From Amycolatopsis sp. EV170708-02-1 (GTDB lineage: Bacteria; Actinomycetota; Actinomycetes; Mycobacteriales; Pseudonocardiaceae), in NCBI RefSeq assembly GCF_022479115.1, contig NZ_CP092497.1, forward strand, positions 1,798,001-1,862,000: DNA of 64,000 nt. Direction: 5' to 3'. The position numbers and the translations under genes are program-made. Below the pieces are notes generated by a model that was given only the letters and a program-made list of their open reading frames with translations, searched no databases and was not told where the DNA came from. This document shows, one piece after another, positions 1,489-22,811 of this stretch (the stretch's first letter is position 1; each line of letters begins with the position of its first letter).

Positions 1489-2526
1489 TCAGCCGAGGTG
1501 GACGACGGTACCGAGCCCCTCCGCCCGGGCCTGAGTGGAGATCGCCGCGTACAGCGCGACGTCGAGGACTCCCATGCCGAACGGGTTCAGCACCACATAC
1601 GGCGACGCGACCCCGTGCGCGCGGTGCCGTCCCGTCAGGACACCGCCCAAGGTGCCGTCGAGGGAGCGTGCCGACCCGGCAGCACCGGGACGCCCGAACA
1701 CGCCTTCCGCCATCAGACGGCCCAGCGGCCGGCGCGGGTTGTCGGCCACCAGGTCCACGTCGTCGACGTAGACCGCCGCCGCGTCGCGGAACGTCGCGTC
1801 CGTCAGATCACCGAGGGAGACATTGATCAGCAACGCGCCCGGCGCGGCCCAGTCCGGCTCGGCGTACCCCTCGTCCATCGTGGTCGTGAACACGGCGATC
1901 TCGGCCTCGGACACCGCTTCCCGCGCCGTCGAGCAGACCTGTACCGCAAGGCCGGGCAGCATGGCGGCCAGTGCCCGCGCGGCCTCCGGGGACCGGTCGT
2001 ACAGGGTGATCTTCCGCAGCGACGGCAGCCGTTCGGCGAGCAGCGCCGCGTGCATCCGGCCCTGCGCGCCGCAACCGACGACGGCCAAGGAAACCGCCCC
2101 GCCGTATCCGAGCGCGTCCACCCCCACCGCGCTCACCGCCGCCGTCCGGACCGCGCTCAGGAGGGCGGCCTCGATGATCGTGGTGATCCGGGCGGTCTCG
2201 GCGTCGAAGCACAGACCGATGCCGCCCGCGCGTTCCAGCCCGCTGGCGGGGTTGGACACGCTGGCGTTGATGATCTTCATGCCGTACGCCGACCTCGCCG
2301 CACCGGGCATCCCGATCGACCGGGTGTAGGCGCCTCGCGAGTTCTCCCAGCGCAGGTACGCCTCGGCGGGCAGGAGACCGATGCCGCGGTCGTGGTCGGC
2401 CAGTGTTTCGCGGACGACGTCCACCGGGGCGACGTTCGTCAGGCACTTGCGGACCTCTTCACGGGACAGCAGTGTCACCTCGCCCGCACCGGACAGGCCG
2501 CTGTCGGCGAGGTCGAACCAGCTCAT
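1489..2526 (-). CDS. SbnB-like dehydrogenase (ornithine cyclodeaminase family), predicted 2,3-diaminopropionate-forming
   Basis: A protein of 345 residues in the ornithine cyclodeaminase/mu-crystallin family. The NAD-binding Rossmann motif 'GCGAQGRMHAALLAERLP' sits mid-protein, and the N-terminal half carries 'RSIGMPGAARSAYGMKIINA', the family's substrate region. In siderophore and tuberactinomycin pathways SbnB/VioK-type members oxidatively hydrolyse N-(2-amino-2-carboxyethyl)-glutamate to L-2,3-diaminopropionate and 2-oxoglutarate. That reaction is inferred here because an SbnA-like synthase lies two genes upstream in the same operon. ATG at 2526 overlaps the stop of the carbamoyltransferase gene in an ATGA arrangement, which decides the start over longer in-frame extensions. 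An ordinary ornithine cyclodeaminase is the alternative but would not explain the SbnA-like partner. Confidence 0.88.
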   Translation of the reverse strand: MSWFDLADSGLSGAGEVTLLSREEVRKCLTNVAPVDVVRETLADHDRGIGLLPAEAYLRWENSRGAYTRSIGMPGAARSAYGMKIINASVSNPASGLERAGGIGLCFDAETARITTIIEAALLSAVRTAAVSAVGVDALGYGGAVSLAVVGCGAQGRMHAALLAERLPSLRKITLYDRSPEAARALAAMLPGLAVQVCSTAREAVSEAEIAVFTTTMDEGYAEPDWAAPGALLINVSLGDLTDATFRDAAAVYVDDVDLVADNPRRPLGRLMAEGVFGRPGAAGSARSLDGTLGGVLTGRHRAHGVASPYVVLNPFGMGVLDVALYAAISTQARAEGLGTVVHLG

Positions 2527-3449
2527 GCCGAGTCCTCCCCGGCACACCACTCGAGCGCGGCCATCGCGCTGTACAGCTTGTTCTCCGCCTGGGCGAAGGC
2601 GACGGAACGCGGCCCGTCGAGCACGTCGGCCGTGACCTCCTCGCCCCGGTGCGCGGGCAGGTCGTGCAGGAACAGCGCGTCCGGGCCTGCCGTCCACAGC
2701 TCCGCCGTCACCTGGAACGGCGCGAACACCGTGCGCCAGCCCGGGTCCGGTTTGGACGTTCCGGTGGTCTGCCATCGGGTGGTGTACACGATGTCCACGC
2801 CGTCAGGCAGGTCGAGGACGTCATGCCGCTCCACAATGGACGAACCATGCCGGGCGGCGTGCTTGCCCGCGCGCTCCAGCACCTCCGGATCGACGCCGTA
2901 GCCCGGCGGGGTGCGCAGGTGCAGTTCGGTGCCGGGGAAACGGCTGAGCGCGAGCGCCAATGCCGCCGCCGTGTTGTTGCCCTCGCCGAGGTACAGCATG
3001 CGGACGCCGTCGACGCGGCCGAAGCGCTGGACGATCGTCGTCAGATCCGCCAACGCCTGGGTCGGATGCTCGTCCGCGCTCATCGCGTTGACGACGGCCA
3101 TCCGGTCCTGCGCCGCGATGGCCCGCAGCTCCGCCGGATCGGCCGCCGTGCGCGCCACGAGGAAGTCCAGCATCGACGACAGCACGCGTCCGGTGTCCTC
3201 GATGGACTCCCCGGTGTTGGTCTGCAGGTCGTCCGGGCCGTACGCGATGATCCGGGCGCCCAGTCGCAGCGCGCCCGCGGAGAACGCGGTGCGTGTGCGG
3301 GTGGAGGTCTTGCGGAAGTGGATGCCGACGACCGCACCATCCAAAGTGGAGTAGTTCGCCCGCGGCCGTTCCGCAAGGCGGACGGCCCGGCCGACGATGG
3401 CACGCAGGTCGTCGTCGGTGAGGTCGTCGAGGGAGATGAGGTGACGCAA
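2523..3449 (-). CDS. Ornithine/aspartate carbamoyltransferase-family enzyme, acceptor uncertain
   Basis: A protein of 308 residues with the carbamoyl-phosphate motif 'STRTRTAFS' near residue 50, 'DEHPTQALADL' (the HPxQ motif) near 130 and the C-terminal 'FLHDLPAHRGEEV' where ornithine transcarbamylases have HCLP. The Cys that lies next to the ornithine side chain in OTC is replaced by Asp. The enzyme should transfer carbamoyl from carbamoyl phosphate to an amine. With diaminopropionate-forming genes on both sides, the inferred acceptor is L-2,3-diaminopropionate, giving 3-ureidoalanine, as VioL/CmnL are thought to act in tuberactinomycin pathways. The gene lies 10 nt after the SbnA-like gene and overlaps the SbnB-like gene by 4 nt. 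Plain argF is unlikely because no other arginine genes are nearby. Confidence 0.85.
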   Translation of the reverse strand: MRHLISLDDLTDDDLRAIVGRAVRLAERPRANYSTLDGAVVGIHFRKTSTRTRTAFSAGALRLGARIIAYGPDDLQTNTGESIEDTGRVLSSMLDFLVARTAADPAELRAIAAQDRMAVVNAMSADEHPTQALADLTTIVQRFGRVDGVRMLYLGEGNNTAAALALALSRFPGTELHLRTPPGYGVDPEVLERAGKHAARHGSSIVERHDVLDLPDGVDIVYTTRWQTTGTSKPDPGWRTVFAPFQVTAELWTAGPDALFLHDLPAHRGEEVTADVLDGPRSVAFAQAENKLYSAMAALEWCAGEDSA

Positions 3450-3459
3450 GAGGAACTCC

Positions 3460-4455
3460 TCAGGAGATCGCGGCCAGGGCGCGGGCGGTCACTTCGGGCA
3501 CTTCGCCGAAGTGACCGCGGACCCACGCGTCGGAGTAGATGGTGTCGAGATAGCGGTTGCCGTCGTCGGGGAACACGAGCACGCACCGGGAGCCGGGCGG
3601 GATGCGGTCGCGCAGCTTCGCGAGCGCGGCCACGGTCGCGCCTGAGGAACCGCCCGCGAGGATGGCCTCCCGGGCGACGAGCATCCGGCACGCCCGCACA
3701 CATTCGAGATCGGTCACGTGCACGACCTCGGTCACCGCGGACGTGTCGACCAGCGGCGGCCGTCGGCCGGCGCCGTGGCCCGGGATCCGGCGTTCTTCCG
3801 TCGGCACGTGGAAGATCGCGCTGCCGGCGGCGTCGACCGCGACCAGCTTCGTGGCCAGCCCTTCGCGCCGGATGTAGTCGGCGCAGCCACGCATCGTGCC
3901 GCCGGTGCCGACCGCGCAGAACAGGTAGTCGACGCGGCCGTCGAGCGCGTCGGCGATCTCGCGCATCGTGTGCTCGTGCGCCGCCGGGTTGAGCGGGTTC
4001 GCGTACTGATCGGGCCAGAAAGCGTCCGGCAGGAGCGCGAGGAGCTCCCGCACCCTGGCGATCCGGGCGCCGAGCAGGTCGCCGTCGACCGGGGCGGTGA
4101 CGACCTCGACCGTGGCGCCGTAGGCCCGCAGCAGCGCCAGGGTCTGCGCGGTCGTGCGGGTGTCGACGACGCACACCAGGTCGAGCCCGAAATACGCGCA
4201 CATCTGGGCGAGCCCGACACCGAGATTGCCCGACGTGGACTCGACGACCACCGATCTGCCCGGCACGAGCGTGCCGGAGCGGATCTCGCCGTGCAGCATG
4301 TTCAGCGCCGTCCGGTCCTTGACGCTGCCGCCGGGGTTGAACTTCTCCAGTTTCGCGAACACCCGGGAGCCTGTCAGCGGGACGACCCGGTCCAAGGCGA
4401 CCAGGGGAGTGTCCCCGATCGTCGCGAGCACACCGCCGATCTCAGCCGTGATCAA
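3460..4455 (-). CDS. SbnA-like N-(2-amino-2-carboxyethyl)-L-glutamate synthase (cysteine synthase fold)
   Basis: A 331-residue fold-type II PLP enzyme. The PLP lysine lies in 'NPGGSVKDRTALNML' (about residue 46), the substrate loop reads 'ESTSGNLGVGLAQM', and the phosphate-binding loop is 'VGTGGTMRGCADYIRR'. The loop has SGNLG rather than the SGNTG of CysK, which fits the SbnA branch. SbnA condenses O-phospho-L-serine with L-glutamate, the first step to L-2,3-diaminopropionate. The partner SbnB-like gene is in the same operon. The start overlaps the end of the dehydratase-like gene by 14 nt. A true cysteine synthase is possible from family resemblance alone, but the operon argues against it. 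Confidence 0.87.
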   Translation of the reverse strand: MITAEIGGVLATIGDTPLVALDRVVPLTGSRVFAKLEKFNPGGSVKDRTALNMLHGEIRSGTLVPGRSVVVESTSGNLGVGLAQMCAYFGLDLVCVVDTRTTAQTLALLRAYGATVEVVTAPVDGDLLGARIARVRELLALLPDAFWPDQYANPLNPAAHEHTMREIADALDGRVDYLFCAVGTGGTMRGCADYIRREGLATKLVAVDAAGSAIFHVPTEERRIPGHGAGRRPPLVDTSAVTEVVHVTDLECVRACRMLVAREAILAGGSSGATVAALAKLRDRIPPGSRCVLVFPDDGNRYLDTIYSDAWVRGHFGEVPEVTARALAAIS

Positions 4456-5386
4456 CGGACACCTGCTCTCTCCTCGCCCCCAGTGGTGGCGCCGCGACGT
4501 TCCCGCCGGAGACGACGGCGACCGCCGCCCTTCCCGGTGGCCCGGCGCGCCCGGTCAGGTGGGCGGCTGTCGCCACCGCACCGCTCAGCTCGGCGACCAC
4601 GCCGAACCGGTCGAACAAGAACGCCTGGGCGGCGACGATGCTTTCCTCGTCGACCGTCACGACGTCGTCCACGAGCGTTTTGACGTGCTCCCACGCGAGC
4701 TCGCCGAGCACCGGGGCGCGCAGGCCGTCGGCGATCGTCCGGTAGGTCCGCGACACCGGCCAGCGCGTCAGGCGGCCGGTGCGGAACGAGTCGGCCGCGT
4801 CGGCGGCGAGTTCGGGTTCCACGCCGACGACCCGCGTGCCCGGCGAGTACGCCTTGACCGCGACGGCGACGCCGGCGAGCAGGCCGCCGTTGCAGACCGG
4901 GACGAGGACGGTGCCCGCGTCCGGCAGATCCGCGACGATCTCCGCGCCGACCGTGCCGTGCCCGGCGATCACCGCGAAATCGGCCGACGTGATCAGGGTG
5001 GCGCCGGTGCGGGCCAGCAGTTCGGCCGTCGCGGATTCCCGTTCACCCGGTGGCACGACGATCACTTCGGCGCCGAGCGCGCGGACCGCGTCGACCTTCA
5101 ACGCGGGCGCCGTTTCGGGCAGCACCACCGTGGCCTTCACCCCTTGGCGGGCCGCGGCGTAGGCCACCGCGCGGCCGTGGTTGCCGGAAGACTGGGCCAG
5201 CACGTGGCCCGTCAGCCCGGAGACCGCGTTGAGCGCGCCGCGGACCTTGAACGAGCCGGTCCGCTGCCGGTTCTCCGGTTTGATCCACAGTCCGTCGACC
5301 GGCCCGAGCACCGGCGTGCGGCGCACGGAGCATCGGATCCGATCCGCGGCCCGCGCGACGTCGGCCCCGGTCACCAGGCGCGTCAC
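4442..5386 (-). CDS. Threonine/serine dehydratase-like PLP enzyme
   Basis: A fold-type II PLP protein of about 314 residues. The catalytic lysine is in 'QRTGSFKVRGALNAV', the substrate loop is 'SSGNHGRAVAYAA', and the PLP-phosphate loop reads 'VPVCNGGLLAGVAVA' where dehydratases usually have GGGGL. There is no C-terminal ACT domain, so it resembles the catabolic or serine-racemase size class. It is first in the four-gene operon. It may supply or remove a small amino acid for the diaminopropionate route, act as a diaminopropionate or ureidoalanine lyase, or racemise the product; the sequence does not decide. GTG at 5386 ('VTRLVTGADV') is preferred because the extra 22 residues from TTG at 5452 are low-complexity. 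Confidence 0.8.
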   Translation of the reverse strand: MTRLVTGADVARAADRIRCSVRRTPVLGPVDGLWIKPENRQRTGSFKVRGALNAVSGLTGHVLAQSSGNHGRAVAYAAARQGVKATVVLPETAPALKVDAVRALGAEVIVVPPGERESATAELLARTGATLITSADFAVIAGHGTVGAEIVADLPDAGTVLVPVCNGGLLAGVAVAVKAYSPGTRVVGVEPELAADAADSFRTGRLTRWPVSRTYRTIADGLRAPVLGELAWEHVKTLVDDVVTVDEESIVAAQAFLFDRFGVVAELSGAVATAAHLTGRAGPPGRAAVAVVSGGNVAAPPLGARREQVSVDHG

Positions 5387-5514
5387 CGGGTCACCACCCG
5401 GCCGGCCCTGCCCTTTTCTGCCCGCAACTCCGCCGAACTCCTTCGCGCCCAAGGCGGTCCGAAGTGGACCTCGGCCGATTCAACTTGGGCCGGACCGGCA
5501 CGGTCCATGAACAA

Positions 5515-5549
5515 CCGACCGGAACTTCGGGGGCGGAAGTTCCGGTCGG
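5515..5549 (-). terminator. Hairpin terminator after the cat operon
   Basis: A perfect 14-bp inverted repeat, CCGACCGGAACTTC (5515-5528) and GAAGTTCCGGTCGG (5536-5549), with a 7-nt G-rich loop. It lies between the catC stop and the start of the dehydratase-like gene, both on the minus strand, so it separates the two operons. There is no U-tract, as is usual for actinobacterial hairpin terminators. Confidence 0.7.
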
Positions 5550-5627
5550 CGCACCGCGCTCACCAACCGGAACGGCGGGCACACGGACCGCGATCGATCA
5601 GGAGACGAGGGGAGTTTCAGGGCACCG

Positions 5628-11864: not shown

Positions 11865-14800
11865 ATGGGCTCACGTACCGGCTCCAGGTGGCTCGCGGTG
11901 GCGACGGCGTTCGTCGTCTCGATCGGAATGGGTGTGGTGGTCACCCCGGCTCCCGCACGGGCGGCGAGCCCCGGGGTCGGCACCCTGGTCAACGCGTTGG
12001 CCGGGCCCACGAACAGCTTCGCCACCTGGAGCAAGGGTCTCGGCACGATCGGGCAGCTGGCGAAGGCGCTGCCCGCCGTGCAGACCAGCCCCGGCGCCGC
12101 GCTCGGGTTCGACACCCTGGCCCAGGAGGCGTTCAACACCGGCGCCAAGAAGCTCTCCGCCGCGGTCGACGACGCCGATCTGGACATCGACCAGCCGATC
12201 ACGTTGTCGGCCGACCGGACCGGGACGCTCAAGACCACGCTGAGCACCGTCGGCGAGGACAAGCGACTCGATCTCACCCTGACCGTCTCCCGCGTACTGC
12301 AGAACCAGGCGCTGAACATCCCGGTCCCGATCGGGGAGGGCGGCAACGCCCCGCAGTCGGCGTTCTCCTCCACCGGCGGCGTGCGGCTCACCGTCGGCAC
12401 CACGGTGAAGCTGACCTTGATCTGGGACAAGGCACACGACAAGGCCTACCTCCTCAACGACGGAACGACGCCGGCGTTCACCGTCGACGCTTCGGCCGGA
12501 TTCCCCGACGCGAACGCCATCAAGGCGGTCAACGCCGCCATCGGTGTCCTCGGGGTGAAGCTCGTCGAGACCGACACCTCGCTGGACCTGAAGGCGCATT
12601 TCGCCGCCACGATCAACGACCCGGACAACGACGGGCGGCTGGCGTTCGTCAACAACGACGGCACCGCGGGCGAGCTGGCCCAGAACGGTTCGCTGGCCGG
12701 TCTGGTCAGCTTCGGCTTCGCCAGCCCGGCAGGATCGCTGAACGGCTCGCTGCACCTGGCCGCCGCACCTGCCGCCTCCTTCTCGCTGGAGCTTCCCTCG
12801 GTGGACGCCAAGATCGGCCTCAGCTGGCCGGACATCGCCACCGGGGCCCCGGAGATCAAACCGGAAGGCATCGGCACCGTCGGCCCGTTCCTGAACATGA
12901 CCCCGCGCGACCTGGCCACCGGCCTCGCACAGCTGGCGACGACGCTGACCTCGATCCAGCGCGCGAAATGGGGCGACGCGGCGAACCCGATCGGCAACCT
13001 CGATCTGCCGTTCCTCAAGGGCACCCTCGCCGACGCGATCCAGCTCAACGAGTCGATCAAGAAGTTCTTGCAGGACAACACGAAGTCCGCGGCGGACCCG
13101 ACACAGGCGGGTGAGCCGCTGTTCGTGTCGCTGCAGCAGATGCTCGACAAGCTCAACACCGCGGCGAACCTGCCCGGCGGCGCCAAGATCGGCATCTCCG
13201 ACGTCCACTTCCCGCCGGGTTCGACCAAGCTCGACTTCAAGATCACGTTGTCCCGCAAGGCACCGGCGACGGCCGTGGATCTCAACGCGGCCGCGGCCGC
13301 GACGTCCGGACCGGCGGGCAACCCGGCCAAGACCAGCTACACGCAGACCACCCTCAAGGACGAGAACCAGGCCTGGAAGATGGGCGAGTTCGCGGGACGG
13401 CGCGTCGTCGCCGGTGCGGCGGGCGCGACCGTCGAGAACAACGACGGCAACACGCTCTTCCTCCAGGCGCCGGGCTGGACGCCGGTGATCCCGGCCGCCA
13501 ACGCGCCGTACACGATCTCCGGGATGCAGGGCGACGTCGGCGTCGTCCAGCTCGGCAACGACCTGAAGACCGGCGGTCGCGGTGTCGGCGAGGCCAACGC
13601 CGTCAACGCCACCGCGAAGGTCAAGCCCAGTTACGACGCCGCGGTCACCCTCGTGCTCGACCTGCAAAACCCGACCGTGCACAACCCGCCGATCGAGCAG
13701 AAGAACCCGGACGGCAGCACGACACTGGTCGGCGCGACGCCGACCGGGCCGGACCGGGTGCTGCTGCGCACTTCCGGCGCTCCGTCGCTGTTCACCGCCG
13801 ATTTCCCGATGGACGCGGGTATCGACCTGTTCGCCAACGCCGGCTTCCTCCAGGTGCAGCTCAAGGGCGCGGCGCACGTCTGCCACCCGAACGCGGGCGC
13901 CGACTGTGCCGGGACACCGGGCGCGGACGACCATATGGCGCAGGTGAAGTTCAAGGACCTCGGGGACCTGACCTTCGGCGCGGTCGTGGACAAGTTGCTG
14001 CACGACCCGGGATCGCTGCTCGACTTCCAGGTGCGGGTCCGCGGTGCCGGTGGCGTCGACGCCACCGCTCCGGGGACGGGCGACTTCCTGAAGGGCGCCT
14101 CCGCGCACGCCGGATTCACCTGGAACGACCTCACCAAGCTCACCGGACCCGACGGGCCGCAGTTCAGCACGAGCGACCTGTCCGAGCTGGTGAATTTCGA
14201 CTTCGACCCGGCCAACCCGAAGGCCCTCTTCTCGATCCTCCTCAAGACGTTGCAGACCCTGAACGCGTCGATCAGTGACGCCTCGCCATCGGGCGCGGCG
14301 GTGTTCGGCACGAAGATCCCCCTGGTCGGCCGTTCGCTGAAGGATCTGTTGAAGGCCGACCAATCCGGCTCCGGCCCGACCGTGAGCTACGGCCCGAATT
14401 CCGTGAAGGACACCGCACGCACCGTCGAAAAGGGCAACGCCTTCCCGCCCTCGCTCGTCGGCCGCACGGTCGTGGCCGGCACCCAGGTGGGCATCGTCGG
14501 CAGTGTCACGCCGGACACTCTGGTCCTGGCCGGACCTTGGGCCAGCCAGCCCTCTCCGTCGACGTCGTACGTGATCCGGTCCGAACTGGACGACGTGATC
14601 TCCTTGCTGGAGGCGGCGCCGTCCGACAACCTGCAACGGCTCGTCCAGACCATCAACACGCGGTTCAAGGACAGTGTCCCGGTGACGTTCGAGTACGCCG
14701 AACCCGGCGGAACGCCGTCGCTGATCATCCGGCTCGACTGGAAACGCGCGTACCACACCAGCACGCCTGTGCAGTTCGACTTCAGCCTGCCGTCCGGCGG

Positions 14801-17800
14801 CCAGCGGGTCGCCGGGGTACAGGGCGACGGCTCGGTCTCCCTCGGCGTCGGCGGTCAGGTCAAGATGGGCCTGGTCGTACCGCTGCAGCCGGGTGCCGGC
14901 CCGGCCGACGCGAACGCGCTGCGCGTGCTCGACGACTCGAAGATCGGCGTGAAACTCGACGCCACCGTGGAGAACGCCACCATCGCGACCACGGTGGGCC
15001 CGCTGAGCGTGTCGCTCGGTGATCCCAAGTCGGCGGACAAGGCGACCGCGAAGGCGTCTTACTCGATCGACCTCGCCAAGGGCGGCGGCACCGGCGCACC
15101 GGTCAGCTTCACCGACTTCCTCGGCGCGGTCGGCCCGACGATCAACGCCGGGAGTACCGCGGTCGACTGCGGGCTCGACGGTGGCACGCCACTGGCGTTG
15201 TGCGCCAAGTTGCCGTTGTACATCAGCGAGGACGGCGGTGCGACCTACAGCAAGGTGATCACCGACGACACGAAGTCGAACAACTTCGCCTTGCGCCTGC
15301 CCAAGGCGACCGCGGCCGACGACTACTTCAACCTCGGCGGCGCGGCGATCGACGGGCATCCGCGGCTGGAGACGCCGGATCCGGCGCTGCTGGCGGACGC
15401 GCTCGCGGCCAAGCTGATCGACTTCGGCAGGCTCGACGGCCTCGACAGCTACCTCAACCTGGTGGAGCAGGCGCTCAACACCGCCAGCTTCGGCGGCAAG
15501 CTGCCGCTGCTCGGTGACGATCTCCAGCAGGGCGCGGACTTCATCGGGAAACTGCGCACCGCGATCCACAACGCGCTGGACCAGCTGCCGGCGAACGGCC
15601 ACTTCGACGACATGGCCGCGGTGCGCGGCTGGGTCAACGACCAACTCGGCGGGAAGCTCGCCGCCGCGGGCCTGAACCCGGACACGGTCACCGTGGACAC
15701 CCTGTGCAAGACGCCGCTGGGCACCGTCGGCGCTCCGACGGTCAAGCTGCACGAAGGCGCGACAGCGGCGGACAAGACCTACCGCTATGTCGTCGCGTCG
15801 TATGTGACGATCGACGGCGCGAAGAAGCAGGCCAAGGCGAGCGATCCCGGCCAGATCACCAACGGCCCGGCGGCACTGTCCACAACGGACTCGCTCGACA
15901 TCGCGTGGGAACCGGTCACCAACGCGTCCGGCTACCTGGTGTTCCGTGAAGAAGGCGGTGCCTTCAAGCAGATCGCGGACGTCACCGACGCCAAGTTCAC
16001 CGACGTCGGGGCCGCTTCGACCGGCGGGGCGCCGGAGAACCCGGCCGAGAACCCGCGGCCGCACGATTGCTCGTACAACGACCTCGACGCGGTCACGATC
16101 AGCCTGAACGTCAGCCAAGGTGATTTCAGCGGTGATCTGCTGAACTGCGCCGGGCTGCCGTCCGGCCACGAATGCCTCAAGAAGACCGTGCCGCTGGACC
16201 TGGGCATCCCCGGGTTCTCGTTGAAGGCCGACGGCGGCGCCGGCCCGGAGGTCCAGCTCGGCTGGCGGCTGCATCTGGCCATGGGCATCAGCCGGAGCGA
16301 GGGATTCTTCGTCGACACCAAGGACTCCGCGCAACCGGAGTTCGCGGTCGGGCTGAACGTCACGCTGCCGAACAAGATCAACGCGCAGCTCGCGTTCATC
16401 AACATCACCGCGGAGAACTGCACGAAGCAGAAGAGCGAGGACGAGTGCAACCACGCGGCCGCCCCGGCGAACGACGCGGGTGTCCTGCCGCTGTTCGGCG
16501 GCGCGTTCAAGATCGACCTGGTGGCGCCGGACGACCCGACCAACGGCAGGCTGCATCTGACCGATCTGCAGAACGCCGGGCTGGACCGGCTCGCCGACGT
16601 CAAGCTGCACGCGAGCGCGGACATCAACTGGCTGCTCAAGGCGCGGCCGGGCGAGGACGCCGGGTTCCCCGGCATCCAGGCGAACTTCCGGCTGCACTGG
16701 GCGTGGAACAACGTCAAACCGGGGACCAACAGCGCCGACGGCGGCAACTCCCCGCTGACACTGGCGTTCGACAAGGTGGCCATCGACAGCGGCGAGATCT
16801 TCGGCAAGATCCTCGGCCCGATCGTGAACAAGATCAAGCAGGTGACCGGTCCGCTCGATCCGGTGATCAAGACGCTGTACGCGCCGATCCCGGTGCTTTC
16901 GGATCTGTCGCATCTGGCGGGCGGCGGTGACGTCACGATGGTGTCGATCGGCAAGGCGTTCAGCACGATCGCCGGCGGCCCGGACCTGAAGTTCGTCGAC
17001 ACCATCGCCGGCGTCGTCAACTTCATCAACAATTTCCCGACCTGTACCGACAAGTGCCTCATCCCGCTCGGGTCGTTCGAACTCGGCGGACAGAAGGCAC
17101 TCGACACCACCGTGACCCCGGACAACACCGAGAGCCTGATCAGTGCGAAGAAGGACGCCGGTGGCGGCACCGCCTTCACCCCGATCCTCGGTGCGATCAA
17201 CGGCAAGAACTCCAACCCGAAGTCGGTCGGGCCGATGACCACCCAGGCGTCGGCTGCCGGGTTCAGCTTCCCGGTGTTCGAGAAGCCCGCGTCGCTGTTC
17301 AACGTGCTGCTCGGCGGGGACGTGGACCTGGTCAAATTCGACTCGGGTCCGCTGCGCCTCGGCTTCGACTGGCGTCAGCAGTTCGGGCCGGTGTACGCGC
17401 CGCCGCCGGTGGTGATCACCTTGCACGGCTCGGCGTCGGTGACGCTGCGCATCGTCGCGGGCTTCGACACCTTCGGCATCCGCAAGGCGTTCGAAGCCGC
17501 CCGCGCCGGCGAACTCGACCTGTCGACCGTGGGGCAGGCGTTCCTGCAGAGCCTGTTCTTCTACACCACCGAAAACGGGAAGCCGATCCCGGTGGTGTCG
17601 TTCACCGGCGAACTCGCCGCCGGGGCGGCCGTCACGGCGGTGATCATCACCGTCGGCATCGAAGGCGGGGTCGGGCTCACGGTCTCGTTCCTGTGGAACG
17701 ATCCCAACCACGACGGGAAGTTCCGGATCACGGAGTTCCTGCAAACGGCGCTGAACAACCCGATATGCCTGTTCACCGTGTCGGGGCGGCTCTATGTCTT

Positions 17801-20800
17801 CCTCAAGCTGTATGTGACGGTCGGCTTCGGCCCGTTCTCGGTTTCGTTCAGCTTCACGATCGTCGACGTCACGCTGCTCGACTTCACCGCGACACCGAAC
17901 TGCACGCCACCACCACCGAAACTCGGCGGGCTCAGCGGTGACGGCAAGACGCTCGTGGTGTACGCGGCCGCGCTCGGTCACACCGCCCAGCGCGGTGGCG
18001 GCGCGGGCGACCCGTACGAGTCGAACAACCAGGAGAAGGACACCGTCAAGATCACGTCGCTGCACGACTACGCGAACCCGGCGAACCCGGCGTTCACCGG
18101 TGTGGCCGTGGACATGCTCGGGATCCGGCGCGAGTTCCGGAACGCGAATATCGAGCGGGTGGTCGTGGACGGCCGCGGTTACGGCAAGCCGATGAGCGTG
18201 ACGTTCATCGGGGACGCCAAACAGGACACCGCGAAGGACGGCCCACCGCCGCCGACCGCGCAGTTCGACCGTGACGCGATCGTGTTCGGCGGCGAGAAGA
18301 ACGACCAGATCAAGACCGGTATCGGCAACTCGTGGGTCGATGGCGGCAAGGGTGACGACACCATCGTCACCGGTGACCGCACCGTGCTCGCCGCGGACCG
18401 GAAGAGCTATGTCCGAAACGAGGCGAAGGCGCGCGTCGCGGGCGGCCCCGGCGTCGACAGCATCACCGTCGGCAACGGCCTGGACGTCGTCGCGGGTGAC
18501 TCGAGCCTCGGCGCGCCTCCGGTGACGTCGGTCGGCTTGAAGGAGCTGAAGAACGACGGTCGTGACGGTGGCGACCCGATCGCGGACGGCACCGGCGGTC
18601 CGACGGTCTCCGTGCCGAACTGGGCGATCCTGCCCGATCCGGCGGGCGGGACCGGGAGCGGCGACGGCAACGACACGATCAAGGTCGGGCTCGCGAAGTC
18701 GACGGCGTTCGGCAACGGCGGTGACGACACCCTCGGTGTCGCGGCCGACGATCCGCTGAAGGACGTGCCGACGCTTCCGCAATCTCTCTTCGTCTCCCCG
18801 GGCGCGATCCTCGTCGGCGGCGACGGCAGCGACCGCTTCGCCGGCGGTACCGGACCGGACGAGATCTACACCGCGGGCAAGCTCGACCCCGGCATCGACG
18901 GCTACGGCTCGGACGACGCCAACACCACGGGTGGCCCGGCAGGTGGGCCGATCAACACCGTCGACACCGGCTCCGGTGACGACAAGGTGTTCGGCGGCAA
19001 GGGACAGGACCGGGTGACCGGCCACTCGACGAAGACGCAGAAGGACGACTTCCGCGGTGGTGGCGGCAACGACATCCTGTTCGGCGGGTTCGGGGCGGAC
19101 ACTCTCTACGGTGGGCCGGACGACGACTACGTGATCGCCGAACCGTCCACGTTGGACTTCCCGGACCCGGCGAAGACCGACGACTACGGGCCGCTCTACT
19201 TCGTCACGCACACGCCGCTCCCGCAGGGCGTGAGCCCGTCGCACAAGACGCTGGTCGGCGGCCTCGGCCGGGACCACATCATCGGCGGTGACGGCGGCGC
19301 GGACGTGTACGGCGACAAGCAGACGACGCCGTGCAAGGCCGGTTCGCCACTTCCGTCGACCCCGGTCGACGAGACGGTGAACGACGTGCTCGACGGCAAC
19401 GACCGCGTCATCGGCGGCGCCGGGGTGGAGAACGTGCGGGCCGGCGGCGGTGACGACAATGTCGACGCCGAGGCGAACGAAGATCTGGTGTGCGGAGAGA
19501 AGGGCAAGGACGTCCTGCACGGCGGCCGCGACGCGGACCAGGTCTGGGGCGGCTCGGACGACGACGCCGTCTACGGCGACACCGGGACCGACACCCTGTA
19601 CGGCAACGACGGCGTCGACACGATGTTCGGTGGCGACGACCCCGACACCATCGAAGGGAACAACGGCAAGGACTGGATCTCCGGTGGCCTGGCCGGCGAC
19701 GTGATCGTCGGCGGCACCCGGGCGCCGGGTCAGCCGGACGACGGCGACAAGCTGTTCGGCGACGGCGGCACCGACACGATCATCGGTGACAACGGTGATC
19801 CGGCGGCGGCAGGCGGGCCGGTGTTCGACCTGGCCAGCAGCGCGGATGCCGCGCTCGGCGGCGACGACACCATCGGCGGTGGCCTCGACACCGACGCGCT
19901 GTACGGCGGGTTGGAGAACGACACCGTCTCCGGCGGGAAGGATCCGGACCGCATCGAAGGCAACCCCGGTGCGGACACGCTGAACGGCGAGACCGAGGCC
20001 GACGACATCATCGGCGGCAGCCACCAGACGCCCGGTGACCCGGCGGCGAAGAACGCGGCGGGCTATCCCGACGCGGGTGACACGATCTCCGGCGGCGACG
20101 CCGACGACGTGATCACCGGTGACAACGCCACGATCACCGGTACGGGTGGCGCGGACTCCGGCGACCCGGTCACCCGTGGCCGCGGTCTGACGGCGGGCAG
20201 GCACGTGGTGCTGTTCGACCTCGGCCACGCCCCGAACCCGGCGAACGCCGGCGGCGACACCATTTCCGGCGGCAACGCCACGGACGTCGTCTACGCGCAG
20301 TCCGGGATGGACACCGTGCACGGCGACGCCGGGGACGACTACGTGGAAGGCGACCAGGACGCCGACAAACTGTTCGGCGACTCCGGACAGGACGATCTCG
20401 TCGGCGGTTCCTCCGCCGTGGAGATGGGCGGCGGCCAGGGCACCGTCGGCCAGCTCGACACCGGGGACACCATCTCCGGCGGCGAGGACGCGGACGTGAT
20501 CACCGGCGACAACGCGCTCGTGACCAGAGACGCGGGCATCCCGAAGAGCCCGATCACCCAGGGCCGGTTCGACACGGACCTGCCCGGCGCGCTCCCGATG
20601 ACACAGCGCAGCATCCAGCTGTACGACCTCGGTGACACGCCGGTGCCGAACACCTCCGGCGGCGACGACATCACCGGGGACAACGGGTGCGACGCGATCC
20701 TCGGCCAGTCCGGGAACGACCGGATCAAGGGCGGCAACGACGGCGACCACGCCGAAGGCGGCCCAGGCCGGGACTGGATCGAAGGCAACAACGGCGACGA

Positions 20801-22811
20801 CGACCTCGTCGGCGGCAGCTCGACGATCCACGGCGACGACACCGCGCTGACCACCCAGGGCCAGCCGGACACTGCCGACGTGGTCTTCGGTGGCACGGGC
20901 GACGACGTGGTACTCGGCGACAACGCGATCACCGACCGGATCGCGCCGCCTTCGCCGTACCTGCTGCGCGTGGGCAGCAACGGGACGTTCGAGACGCAGC
21001 GCTCGCTGCGGCTGCTGGATCTCTCGTGGAGCAACGGATTCCTCGGCGCGCCGGCACGTTCGGTGGCGGGCGGGGATCAGCTGTCCGGTGGCGGCGGCGT
21101 CGACGTGATGTTCGGCCAGGACGGCGACGACCAGATCTCCGGTGGCGCGCACGACGACTACGCCGAGGGCAACGGCGGGCACGACACGATGTTCGGCGAC
21201 CGCACCCTCGCGGAGGCCGGGATCGCGATCACCCCGCCGGAGCCGGCGTGGCCGGGCGCGGCGTCGGACGACCTCGGTGACGTCTCCGCGCCGAACGGCC
21301 AGGACGACCTGATCGGCGGCAGCTCGCTGGAGGTCTTCCGCGACACGGCCGACGACGTGCACGGTGACGGCGCCGCCGACTTCATCCTCGGCGACAACGG
21401 CACCGCGGTGCGGGAGATCGTGGACCAGACCGGCAAACCGGTGGCGCTCGGCGACGACCTGTCGAAGGTCTCGCTGCCGCTGACGAACCGGATCTACGCG
21501 AAGCGCTACTCGGAGTCTCCGCCCGCCGGTGCGGCGTTCGTCCGCCACGGCGTCAACGGCGCACCGACGCGCTTCTGCACCACCACGCAGGCCACCTGCG
21601 AGGCACTCGGCGCCTCCGGCGGCGACAACCTGTGGGGCGACGCGGGGGAGGACACCCAGTACGGCCAGGACGGCGACGACCTGATGTACGGCGACACCGG
21701 CACGACGACGGCTCCGGGTGACGGCGCCGACGACATGTACGGCGAGCTGGGCGGGGACCGGATGTGGGGCACCGGCGGCGAAGACGCCATGGTCGGTGAC
21801 CGCGGCGGCGTCGTGGACGTGTTCCAGAACGGGTCGAACCACTTCGTGATCGACAATCCTCAGGTGCCCGCGATCCACTACGAGGGCTTCCTGGCAGGCT
21901 CGGTCACGCGGCAGGTCGATCTGCAGCACGACGTCAACGGCGACGCCTTCGCCGCACCCGGCAACGCCCCGGCGATGCCGCACCGCGGCGACCTCGAAGG
22001 CGGTGACGACCGCATCCGCGGCGGCGACGACCACGACTCGATCCACGGCGGCTTCGGCGACGACCTGGCCAACGGGGACTCGGGCGGTGACATCGTCTTC
22101 GGCGACGACGGCGCGGACGTGCTGTGGGGCGGCAAGGGCGGCACCGACCCGGCCAACCCGAACGATCGGGGTGTCAACGATTCACTCGTCGACCACCTCA
22201 TCGGCGGCAAGGGCGCGACGTCCGGACCGTCGGTCGACCCGGACACCGGCGCGCTGGGTTCGGACATCCTCGACTGGCGCCCGCGTGGCACCTACGGCGC
22301 ACCGGGGCAGACGACCTGCACCGCGAACCCGTGGCCGCAGACCTTCGGCAACGGCAAGAACGCGGTCACCGTCGACCCGTGCTCGTGGTTCGAGATGACG
22401 AACCTCGACAACGCCGATGTCGCGGACAACCAGCACCACCAGGGCATCGACTGGATCTACGGTGGCTGGGACCGCGACGTGCTGCAGGCCGATGTCGCCG
22501 ACAACGGGCCGAACCTCGGTGACCGGTTGCTCGACTGGGGCGGTGCGTACAACCTCTACACGCACTGCAACGCGGCCTACGGCGGCTACAACGACGTCCG
22601 GCAGCACAGTCCGACGCATCAGGAGTTCCTGCAGCGGTGGGCGTACTCGCTGGGCGCCGGTCAGGTGGCCGGGGACGTGACCACGGAGGGCACGTCGGCG
22701 TACGACGAGCTGGCGCTGGTGTACCAGCCGGATATGAAGGACCACGGCACGGGACCGGCGTTCCCGACCACGCCGGGCCATTTCGACAACCCGAACGCGT
22801 GCGCACCGTGA
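11865..22811 (+). CDS. Giant secreted RTX-repeat calcium-binding protein, 3648 residues
   Basis: A Sec signal peptide (about 1-33, ending 'PAPARAAS') exports the protein. Residues 34 to about 2100 form an extended beta-rich region of no family I recognise, with internally similar segments ('KIPLVGRSLKDLLKAD', 'KLPLLGDDLQQGADF'), a fibronectin-III-like unit near 1288-1395, and EF-hand-like loops 'DPDNDGRLAF' (about 252) and 'DPNHDGKFRITEF' (about 1947). From about 2137 to 3430 it is packed with RTX nonapeptides (GGxGxDxUx), such as 'GGKGDDTI' and 'GGFGADTLYGGPDDDYV', which fold as calcium-filled beta-rolls. Long non-repeat inserts recur between blocks, several with a 'DLGDTPVPN' or 'DLSW' phrase. 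Residues about 3440-3648 form a Cys- and Trp-containing C-terminal domain. No LPxTG, transmembrane anchor or enzyme motif is seen, so it is a secreted or wall-associated structural or adhesive protein. Convergent hairpins follow it. Confidence 0.9.
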   Translation: MGSRTGSRWLAVATAFVVSIGMGVVVTPAPARAASPGVGTLVNALAGPTNSFATWSKGLGTIGQLAKALPAVQTSPGAALGFDTLAQEAFNTGAKKLSAAVDDADLDIDQPITLSADRTGTLKTTLSTVGEDKRLDLTLTVSRVLQNQALNIPVPIGEGGNAPQSAFSSTGGVRLTVGTTVKLTLIWDKAHDKAYLLNDGTTPAFTVDASAGFPDANAIKAVNAAIGVLGVKLVETDTSLDLKAHFAATINDPDNDGRLAFVNNDGTAGELAQNGSLAGLVSFGFASPAGSLNGSLHLAAAPAASFSLELPSVDAKIGLSWPDIATGAPEIKPEGIGTVGPFLNMTPRDLATGLAQLATTLTSIQRAKWGDAANPIGNLDLPFLKGTLADAIQLNESIKKFLQDNTKSAADPTQAGEPLFVSLQQMLDKLNTAANLPGGAKIGISDVHFPPGSTKLDFKITLSRKAPATAVDLNAAAAATSGPAGNPAKTSYTQTTLKDENQAWKMGEFAGRRVVAGAAGATVENNDGNTLFLQAPGWTPVIPAANAPYTISGMQGDVGVVQLGNDLKTGGRGVGEANAVNATAKVKPSYDAAVTLVLDLQNPTVHNPPIEQKNPDGSTTLVGATPTGPDRVLLRTSGAPSLFTADFPMDAGIDLFANAGFLQVQLKGAAHVCHPNAGADCAGTPGADDHMAQVKFKDLGDLTFGAVVDKLLHDPGSLLDFQVRVRGAGGVDATAPGTGDFLKGASAHAGFTWNDLTKLTGPDGPQFSTSDLSELVNFDFDPANPKALFSILLKTLQTLNASISDASPSGAAVFGTKIPLVGRSLKDLLKADQSGSGPTVSYGPNSVKDTARTVEKGNAFPPSLVGRTVVAGTQVGIVGSVTPDTLVLAGPWASQPSPSTSYVIRSELDDVISLLEAAPSDNLQRLVQTINTRFKDSVPVTFEYAEPGGTPSLIIRLDWKRAYHTSTPVQFDFSLPSGGQRVAGVQGDGSVSLGVGGQVKMGLVVPLQPGAGPADANALRVLDDSKIGVKLDATVENATIATTVGPLSVSLGDPKSADKATAKASYSIDLAKGGGTGAPVSFTDFLGAVGPTINAGSTAVDCGLDGGTPLALCAKLPLYISEDGGATYSKVITDDTKSNNFALRLPKATAADDYFNLGGAAIDGHPRLETPDPALLADALAAKLIDFGRLDGLDSYLNLVEQALNTASFGGKLPLLGDDLQQGADFIGKLRTAIHNALDQLPANGHFDDMAAVRGWVNDQLGGKLAAAGLNPDTVTVDTLCKTPLGTVGAPTVKLHEGATAADKTYRYVVASYVTIDGAKKQAKASDPGQITNGPAALSTTDSLDIAWEPVTNASGYLVFREEGGAFKQIADVTDAKFTDVGAASTGGAPENPAENPRPHDCSYNDLDAVTISLNVSQGDFSGDLLNCAGLPSGHECLKKTVPLDLGIPGFSLKADGGAGPEVQLGWRLHLAMGISRSEGFFVDTKDSAQPEFAVGLNVTLPNKINAQLAFINITAENCTKQKSEDECNHAAAPANDAGVLPLFGGAFKIDLVAPDDPTNGRLHLTDLQNAGLDRLADVKLHASADINWLLKARPGEDAGFPGIQANFRLHWAWNNVKPGTNSADGGNSPLTLAFDKVAIDSGEIFGKILGPIVNKIKQVTGPLDPVIKTLYAPIPVLSDLSHLAGGGDVTMVSIGKAFSTIAGGPDLKFVDTIAGVVNFINNFPTCTDKCLIPLGSFELGGQKALDTTVTPDNTESLISAKKDAGGGTAFTPILGAINGKNSNPKSVGPMTTQASAAGFSFPVFEKPASLFNVLLGGDVDLVKFDSGPLRLGFDWRQQFGPVYAPPPVVITLHGSASVTLRIVAGFDTFGIRKAFEAARAGELDLSTVGQAFLQSLFFYTTENGKPIPVVSFTGELAAGAAVTAVIITVGIEGGVGLTVSFLWNDPNHDGKFRITEFLQTALNNPICLFTVSGRLYVFLKLYVTVGFGPFSVSFSFTIVDVTLLDFTATPNCTPPPPKLGGLSGDGKTLVVYAAALGHTAQRGGGAGDPYESNNQEKDTVKITSLHDYANPANPAFTGVAVDMLGIRREFRNANIERVVVDGRGYGKPMSVTFIGDAKQDTAKDGPPPPTAQFDRDAIVFGGEKNDQIKTGIGNSWVDGGKGDDTIVTGDRTVLAADRKSYVRNEAKARVAGGPGVDSITVGNGLDVVAGDSSLGAPPVTSVGLKELKNDGRDGGDPIADGTGGPTVSVPNWAILPDPAGGTGSGDGNDTIKVGLAKSTAFGNGGDDTLGVAADDPLKDVPTLPQSLFVSPGAILVGGDGSDRFAGGTGPDEIYTAGKLDPGIDGYGSDDANTTGGPAGGPINTVDTGSGDDKVFGGKGQDRVTGHSTKTQKDDFRGGGGNDILFGGFGADTLYGGPDDDYVIAEPSTLDFPDPAKTDDYGPLYFVTHTPLPQGVSPSHKTLVGGLGRDHIIGGDGGADVYGDKQTTPCKAGSPLPSTPVDETVNDVLDGNDRVIGGAGVENVRAGGGDDNVDAEANEDLVCGEKGKDVLHGGRDADQVWGGSDDDAVYGDTGTDTLYGNDGVDTMFGGDDPDTIEGNNGKDWISGGLAGDVIVGGTRAPGQPDDGDKLFGDGGTDTIIGDNGDPAAAGGPVFDLASSADAALGGDDTIGGGLDTDALYGGLENDTVSGGKDPDRIEGNPGADTLNGETEADDIIGGSHQTPGDPAAKNAAGYPDAGDTISGGDADDVITGDNATITGTGGADSGDPVTRGRGLTAGRHVVLFDLGHAPNPANAGGDTISGGNATDVVYAQSGMDTVHGDAGDDYVEGDQDADKLFGDSGQDDLVGGSSAVEMGGGQGTVGQLDTGDTISGGEDADVITGDNALVTRDAGIPKSPITQGRFDTDLPGALPMTQRSIQLYDLGDTPVPNTSGGDDITGDNGCDAILGQSGNDRIKGGNDGDHAEGGPGRDWIEGNNGDDDLVGGSSTIHGDDTALTTQGQPDTADVVFGGTGDDVVLGDNAITDRIAPPSPYLLRVGSNGTFETQRSLRLLDLSWSNGFLGAPARSVAGGDQLSGGGGVDVMFGQDGDDQISGGAHDDYAEGNGGHDTMFGDRTLAEAGIAITPPEPAWPGAASDDLGDVSAPNGQDDLIGGSSLEVFRDTADDVHGDGAADFILGDNGTAVREIVDQTGKPVALGDDLSKVSLPLTNRIYAKRYSESPPAGAAFVRHGVNGAPTRFCTTTQATCEALGASGGDNLWGDAGEDTQYGQDGDDLMYGDTGTTTAPGDGADDMYGELGGDRMWGTGGEDAMVGDRGGVVDVFQNGSNHFVIDNPQVPAIHYEGFLAGSVTRQVDLQHDVNGDAFAAPGNAPAMPHRGDLEGGDDRIRGGDDHDSIHGGFGDDLANGDSGGDIVFGDDGADVLWGGKGGTDPANPNDRGVNDSLVDHLIGGKGATSGPSVDPDTGALGSDILDWRPRGTYGAPGQTTCTANPWPQTFGNGKNAVTVDPCSWFEMTNLDNADVADNQHHQGIDWIYGGWDRDVLQADVADNGPNLGDRLLDWGGAYNLYTHCNAAYGGYNDVRQHSPTHQEFLQRWAYSLGAGQVAGDVTTEGTSAYDELALVYQPDMKDHGTGPAFPTTPGHFDNPNACAP

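Follow-up and report, generated by a model that had tools for sequence, protein, structure and literature searches.

A stretch of 64,000 nucleotides (hereafter the window; C1:1798001-1862000) from the 9.66 Mb one-contig genome of Amycolatopsis sp. EV170708-02-1 (G000) carries a four-gene operon that probably forms one half of a non-ribosomal peptide synthetase (NRPS) pathway, with the other half 3.9 Mb away. The operon occupies positions 1489-5386 on the minus strand and consists of four intact, coupled open frames for a dehydratase-like enzyme (DEH), an SbnA-like synthase, an OTC-family carbamoyltransferase and an SbnB-like dehydrogenase. We consider it likely that reciprocal loss turned two clusters into a single two-locus pathway, in which the operon supplies L-2,3-diaminopropionate (Dap) or its ureido derivative to the distant NRPS under a shared regulatory site. 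The initial annotation had described the same four coupled genes with SbnA-like and SbnB-like members, and their coordinates, frames and families agree with our analysis; it had further proposed the free amino acid albizziine (3-ureidoalanine) as a possible end product.

Relatives of the carbamoyltransferase were collected by a contig scan that matched 273 stretches, 125 of them encoding a relative, and the best 80 of these 125 were kept, the closest being from Amycolatopsis. An NRPS-like gene lies within the fetched stretch at 69 of the 80 loci. Homologues of both SbnA and SbnB are present at 14 loci, and the operon including DEH at five, all of them from Amycolatopsis. At four of these five (A. 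orientalis, A. sp. WAC 01376, A. bullii, and A. roodepoortensis) an NRPS of ~2290 amino acids ends directly before DEH, whereas catechol (cat) genes rather than an NRPS precede DEH in A. keratiniphila and in the window. The earlier remark that no NRPS, transporter or siderophore gene adjoins the operon is thus correct for the window but not for the four fetched loci with an attached NRPS. The four genes also stand together in genome G320, where the order is giant repeat protein, IclR-type gene, cat genes, regulator, NRPS1, NRPS2, DEH, SbnA, OTC, SbnB. There, the regulator (797 aa), NRPS1 (1661 aa), and NRPS2 (2277 aa) are set between catC and DEH. In a set of 80 genomes from the genus, seven contain SbnB at 70% or more and eight the end of NRPS2 at 81% or more; in the eighth, G323, the series NRPS2-DEH-SbnA-OTC is interrupted by the end of a contig.

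The window retains a trace of the missing synthetase genes. Directly upstream of DEH lies a relic of the NRPS1 promoter and of the 5' terminus of the NRPS genes that were deleted (5396..5624, minus strand). It matches the spacer between regulator and NRPS1 with 89.6% identity in A. orientalis over 229 bases and with 92.7% identity in G320 over 206 bases (5396-5601). Of the NRPS1 start, 14 codons (TTG...TGA; 5383..5427, minus strand) can in addition be made out by eye in the sequence and the alignments; their stop codon overlaps with the start codon of DEH. A. keratiniphila has a relic of 178 bp with boundaries up to ~31 bases off those of the window, and the two genomes likely share one deletion.

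The sister NRPS cluster of the same genome, at C1:5677409-5694813, bears the complementary scar. Compared with WAC 01376, it retains DEH codons 4-31 (79%, E value 8e-10) followed by SbnB codons 315-348 (82%, 2e-13). A. keratiniphila and G320 have likewise lost the operon at their WAC-type NRPS, with a different boundary; in G320 this second NRPS lies at 2484351-2501762 with no operon attached. NRPS2 of A. orientalis matches C1:5687881-5694810 in our genome (79%) and contig C45 of A. keratiniphila (78%), and no operon adjoins either. The genome therefore holds a cognate NRPS without precursor genes of its own, which is what a subcluster acting in trans calls for. The two loci also differ in kinship: DEH, SbnA, OTC, and SbnB of the window are 93, 97, 93, and 88% identical to A. 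orientalis and 77, 83, 79, and 70% to WAC 01376. For the distant NRPS2 the pattern is the opposite (93% to WAC 01376, 77% to A. orientalis).

A palindrome, GACCGGAANTT-N10-16-TTCCGGTC, is found at the junction of regulator and NRPS1 in either cluster type, and again before the window operon. In the window, this operator-like site reads GACCGGAACTT-N12-TTCCGGTC (5517..5547, no strand assigned) and is common to the distant NRPS1 promoter. The pattern was drawn from these same sites and matches there by construction, so that its count elsewhere is the test. The whole 9.66 Mb genome contains it at exactly two places, window 5517-5547 and C1:5679833-5679865. Among 12 chosen genomes it is present in eight, at these promoters only (twice each in G000, A. 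keratiniphila, and G320, once each in five others), and it is absent from all four genomes that lack the cluster. A reversed control pattern gave no match in any of the 12 genomes, and shuffles of the window expect 0.00 occurrences. The regulator beside the distant NRPS is an XRE/NB-ARC/TPR protein, and this protein probably binds the palindromic site.

These traces show how the pathway came apart and suggest how it may work now. The ancestral locus had the order catC, regulator-NRPS1-NRPS2-DEH-SbnA-OTC-SbnB. At the window locus, the regulator and both NRPS genes were deleted, leaving the NRPS promoter, which would now drive the operon, and the sister cluster lost its own operon copy. The two halves would constitute one pathway, linked by the same palindrome in both promoters. 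In this pathway, SbnA would join O-phosphoserine and glutamate, the SbnB/CmnK-like dehydrogenase would then yield Dap, and the carbamoyltransferase would use carbamoyl phosphate to convert Dap to beta-ureidoalanine for use by the distant NRPS. DEH would act on one of the building blocks in an additional step, perhaps racemization or elimination.

The SbnA-like synthase (3460..4455, minus strand; 331 aa from a start at 4455 or 323 aa from 4431) scored 401 bits to TIGR03945 in the profile scan, above the cut-off of 350, did not reach the cut-offs of cysteine synthase models and matched the solved SbnA structure 5d87 with 4e-71. For the SbnB/CmnK-like dehydrogenase (1489..2526, minus strand; 345 aa), whose ATG overlaps the stop codon of the carbamoyltransferase gene, the nearest solved structure is CmnK (3e-74), followed by 4m54, a 'putative ornithine cyclodeaminase' (1.5e-34).

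The carbamoyltransferase (2523..3449, minus strand; 308 aa) is a member of the OTC family. According to PMC4581275, L-2,3-diaminopropionate transcarbamylases combine HDLP with (T/S)RWQTTG in the 240s loop, whereas OTCases have HCLP and DxxxSMG, and the former family is described as carbamylating Dap to ureidoalanine in the zwittermicin A route. The window enzyme carries both signatures of the Dap family, TTRWQTTG at residue 223 and HDLP at residue 262, the latter being the replacement of HCLP recognized in the initial annotation. By sequence it does not belong to ArgF: the best OTC models gave 251.6 of 306 and 247.2 of 280.9 bits, both below the cut-off, and DxxxSMG and HCLP are missing. The 80 relatives have the motif pairs HDLP+RWQTTG (70), HDLP+RWETTG (9), and HHLP+RWQTTG (1), and HCLP with DxxxSMG is present in all ten ArgF rows examined, including the ArgF of the same genome (L001). 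In a tree of 59 rows, 49 family rows separated from the ten ArgF rows with an SH-aLRT of 100; these rows are a chosen part of the set, with three near-copies and a distant paralogue from the same genome omitted. A tree with ArgF, VioL, and CmnL had been proposed earlier, and the separation from ArgF is clear, while VioL, CmnL, and the zwittermicin sequences were not among the rows. Because both signatures are present and the separation from ArgF is clean, the predicted conversion of Dap to beta-ureidoalanine is well supported, and the Dap and carbamoylation part of the earlier reading agrees with the published motifs (PMC4581275) and with the tree.

Long open frames at some loci hinted that the carbamoyltransferase might be fused to other domains. 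As the length upstream of the matched part is open frame only, and as no row extends more than 55 residues beyond the matched part, this idea was dropped. Streptomyces plasmids also encode homologues of the Dap transcarbamylase, at 50-69% identity, in 28 records; three of these, each of 1.79 Mb, are from S. clavuligerus.

The fourth enzyme, DEH (4442..5386, minus strand; 314 aa), belongs to the PALP family and resembles the fold-type II pyridoxal phosphate enzymes serine racemase and threonine dehydratase. All 25 NCBIfam models shown, of 36 matched, remained under their cut-offs, the best being NF005454 with 233.5 bits against 452. Aligned to the human serine racemase sequence, DEH has the SFK lysine motif and the SSGNH loop, and its phosphate loop reads CNGG instead of GGGG. 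This CNGG loop, already pointed out from the window, is conserved in all seven aligned Amycolatopsis orthologues, whereas four aligned paralogues have GGGG or SGGG. DEH is a constant member of the operon across the seven Amycolatopsis regions compared. A role as racemase of a building block is a tentative first choice that we hold at somewhat below even chances; an eliminase or dehydratase activity is less likely, and some other reaction is possible to the same limited degree. The racemase idea was probed with a condensation-domain tree in which four Amycolatopsis regions were compared with an A. orientalis NRPS that we presume to be the vancomycin synthetase. The 14 Amycolatopsis condensation domains stood apart from the DCL references, among which the two LCL references fell as well. 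This comparison lends no support to DEH acting as a racemase for D-residues and, given the placement of the LCL references, does not count against it either. None of the eight Amycolatopsis NRPS regions scanned contains an epimerization (E) domain.

NRPS2 of the distant cluster has the architecture C-A-T-C-T-TE-MFS, i.e., two condensation domains, one adenylation (A) domain, two carrier domains, a thioesterase (TE), and an MFS transporter domain. Its last module lacks an A domain; in capreomycin biosynthesis, CmnI receives its substrate in trans from CmnA-A1 (PMC12400406). The thioesterase motif reads GHCVG in all six regions examined, with Cys replacing the usual Ser. Cys-type thioesterases of SulM and ObiF form beta-lactam or beta-lactone rings, and an Asn following the Cys is said to be peculiar to SulM (PMC11298585). 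In NRPS2 this residue is Val, and we therefore claim no ring type. The A-domain codes are DAAQAACV(N/C) for A1, DVEDLGGVA for A2, DTGN(F/Y/L)GCIT for A3, and DFTKIAHMC for A4, the last being complete in one of six regions. No substrate was assigned, since the best-scoring A domains of the other fetched loci are only ~40-47% identical and have mixed codes.

Several further features of NRPS1 were observed. In our genome, regulator and NRPS1 form a single 3494-aa open frame (C1:5677409-5687893; L134:9410-19894), whereas they are two genes in the relatives examined; the joining apparently results from a one-base difference near the end of the regulator, which could be real or an assembly error. 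In the first condensation domain of NRPS1 (residues 573-995 in A. orientalis) the HHxxxDG motif reads DHIATDG, with the first His changed to Asp, in both sequences read, one per cluster type. The four NRPS1 first condensation domains formed a long branch of their own in the condensation-domain tree. NRPS1 of the WAC type is longer (2635-2678 aa versus 1661-1678 aa in A. orientalis, G320A, and A. bullii) and has one additional A domain in the copies read, so the sister clusters should make peptides that differ in length. It seems to us evenly balanced whether reciprocal loss left a hybrid pathway, in which an A. orientalis-type operon and a WAC-type synthetase are tied by a common operator and the single regulator that survives, and whether this pathway makes a so far undescribed peptide with ureidoalanine or Dap, released by the Cys thioesterase and exported by the fused MFS domain.

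Some observations weigh against a split pathway. The match between window and G320 stops at the SbnB stop codon, and the flanks beyond differ. This unlike flank is explained by an inversion of ~100 kb, one breakpoint of which falls directly behind SbnB. The downstream flank of the window (G000 1793100-1798100) is found in G320 at 3993766-3998768 (95%), and the flank after the G320 operon in G000 at 1895980-1899108 (93-95%); these two flanks keep their direction between the genomes, with the cat genes and the operon turned round. The inversion thus accounts for the flank, and window and G320 represent one locus that once had the whole cluster. (The comparison spanned G000 1793100-1899108 and G320 3993766-4115500; A. 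keratiniphila has the arrangement of the window.) A single deletion shared with A. keratiniphila is not proven, because the two junctions differ as described. The best family of the SbnB-like protein, TIGR03944, was matched with 195.9 bits, below its cut-off of 326.9, and the A-domain codes name neither ureidoalanine nor Dap. Finally, dN/dS values, calculated from whole genes and not for the post-deletion branch alone, are slightly higher for SbnB and DEH in the detached pair, window and A. keratiniphila (DEH 0.19, SbnA 0.08, OTC 0.09, SbnB 0.28), than in the comparison of G320 with A. orientalis, where the operon is attached (0.15, 0.08, 0.14, and 0.19, respectively). This would suit a dying remnant, four genes left useless by a recent NRPS loss, as would the position of the operon at a deletion junction beside an inversion breakpoint and the GTG start of the window's DEH, where G320 and A. 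keratiniphila have ATG. We consider such decay improbable. All four frames are open, the range of 0.08-0.28 in the detached genes, compared with 0.08-0.19 in the attached ones, indicates purifying selection, promoter and site are retained, and the genome keeps a matching NRPS that has no operon of its own.

Even less probable is a self-standing operon whose free albizziine is exported or stored as an antimetabolite. Such a product would fit the window by itself, where only the Dap and carbamoyl-transfer enzymes and DEH are found and no NRPS stands beside them; the search for an exporter near the operon covered the window proteins that were put through the family scan. However, an NRPS adjoins this operon at four of the five loci and in G320, the relic of an NRPS promoter lies upstream, and the operator-like site is shared with the matching NRPS 3.9 Mb away. 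We therefore replace the free end product by a split NRPS pathway, so that the initial annotation is supported in part, its chemistry largely standing. A second ArgF with a second cysteine synthase, serving ordinary metabolism, would explain the similarity at family level but is very improbable indeed, given an ArgF with HCLP and DxxxSMG in the same genome, the split of 49 from 10 rows in the tree and an SbnA that passes its own family cut-off but not those of cysteine synthases. A variant compatible with the split pathway would place carbamoylation late, on peptide-bound Dap, with the operon providing Dap and a tailoring enzyme. This is possible, though we do not favor it. The close match of the SbnB-like enzyme to CmnK of capreomycin fits the variant, whereas an A domain with a DAxQ code, which we take to be Gln-like, occurs at 14 of the 80 loci, seven of them with SbnA and SbnB, and suits free ureidoalanine. 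A viomycin review lists carbamoylation by VioL after ring assembly (PMC9403184); as VioL acts late, the carbamoyltransferase of the window may act on a peptide, which is a further point against supply of free ureidoalanine. PMC4581275, on the other hand, has the family carbamylating Dap itself to ureidoalanine.

Two neighbors of the operon were noted in the window. The open reading frame at 31-1443, just downstream and on the opposite strand, has a weak match to sigma-70 region 2 (20.3 bits, below the cut-off of 24) and no match listed within the A. keratiniphila stretch. A predicted protein of ~3640 aa (11898-22811), encoded beside the IclR-type gene and 97% identical in G320, contains by eye many Gly/Asp-rich repeats of the GGxGxDxI type.

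Genome mining mostly assumes contiguous clusters, but here the pathway seems to be split into pieces 3.9 Mb apart. On its own, the window piece would pass for a pathway to a free amino acid, and the NRPS piece would be short of its building blocks. The intermediate genome, the deletion scars, and the two-site operator show how the pathway probably came apart, and the operator offers a simple handle for finding detached cluster parts. Our searches of the open-licence PMC literature listed no paper describing the peptide or the cluster and no matching case of split clusters or crosstalk.

Each of the known systems resembles this pathway in part. In zwittermicin A biosynthesis an enzyme with HDLP and (T/S)RWQTTG carbamylates Dap to beta-ureidoalanine, as predicted here from sequence, but within a Bacillus cluster that is not split as far as PMC4581275 tells. 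The tuberactinomycins viomycin and capreomycin likewise have an SbnA-like enzyme, a CmnK-like enzyme, and a Dap transcarbamylase that serve an NRPS, including one NRPS module without an A domain. Their Dap and ureido genes are VioB/K/L and CmnB/K/L. Unlike in these systems, no capreomycidine gene was recognized in the parts scanned here, DEH is an extra enzyme, the NRPS ends in TE-MFS, and the operon lies 3.9 Mb from it. SbnA and SbnB are the Dap enzyme pair of staphyloferrin B; here, no siderophore gene was recognized beside the operon, and the carbamoyltransferase and DEH are added. Crosstalk between NRPS clusters is already known from erythrochelin, for which separate clusters reportedly cooperate in one product, to go by the title of Lazos 2010. 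What sets the present case apart is that each sister cluster lost the half kept by the other, that an intermediate is preserved in G320, and that a site is common to the promoters of both halves.

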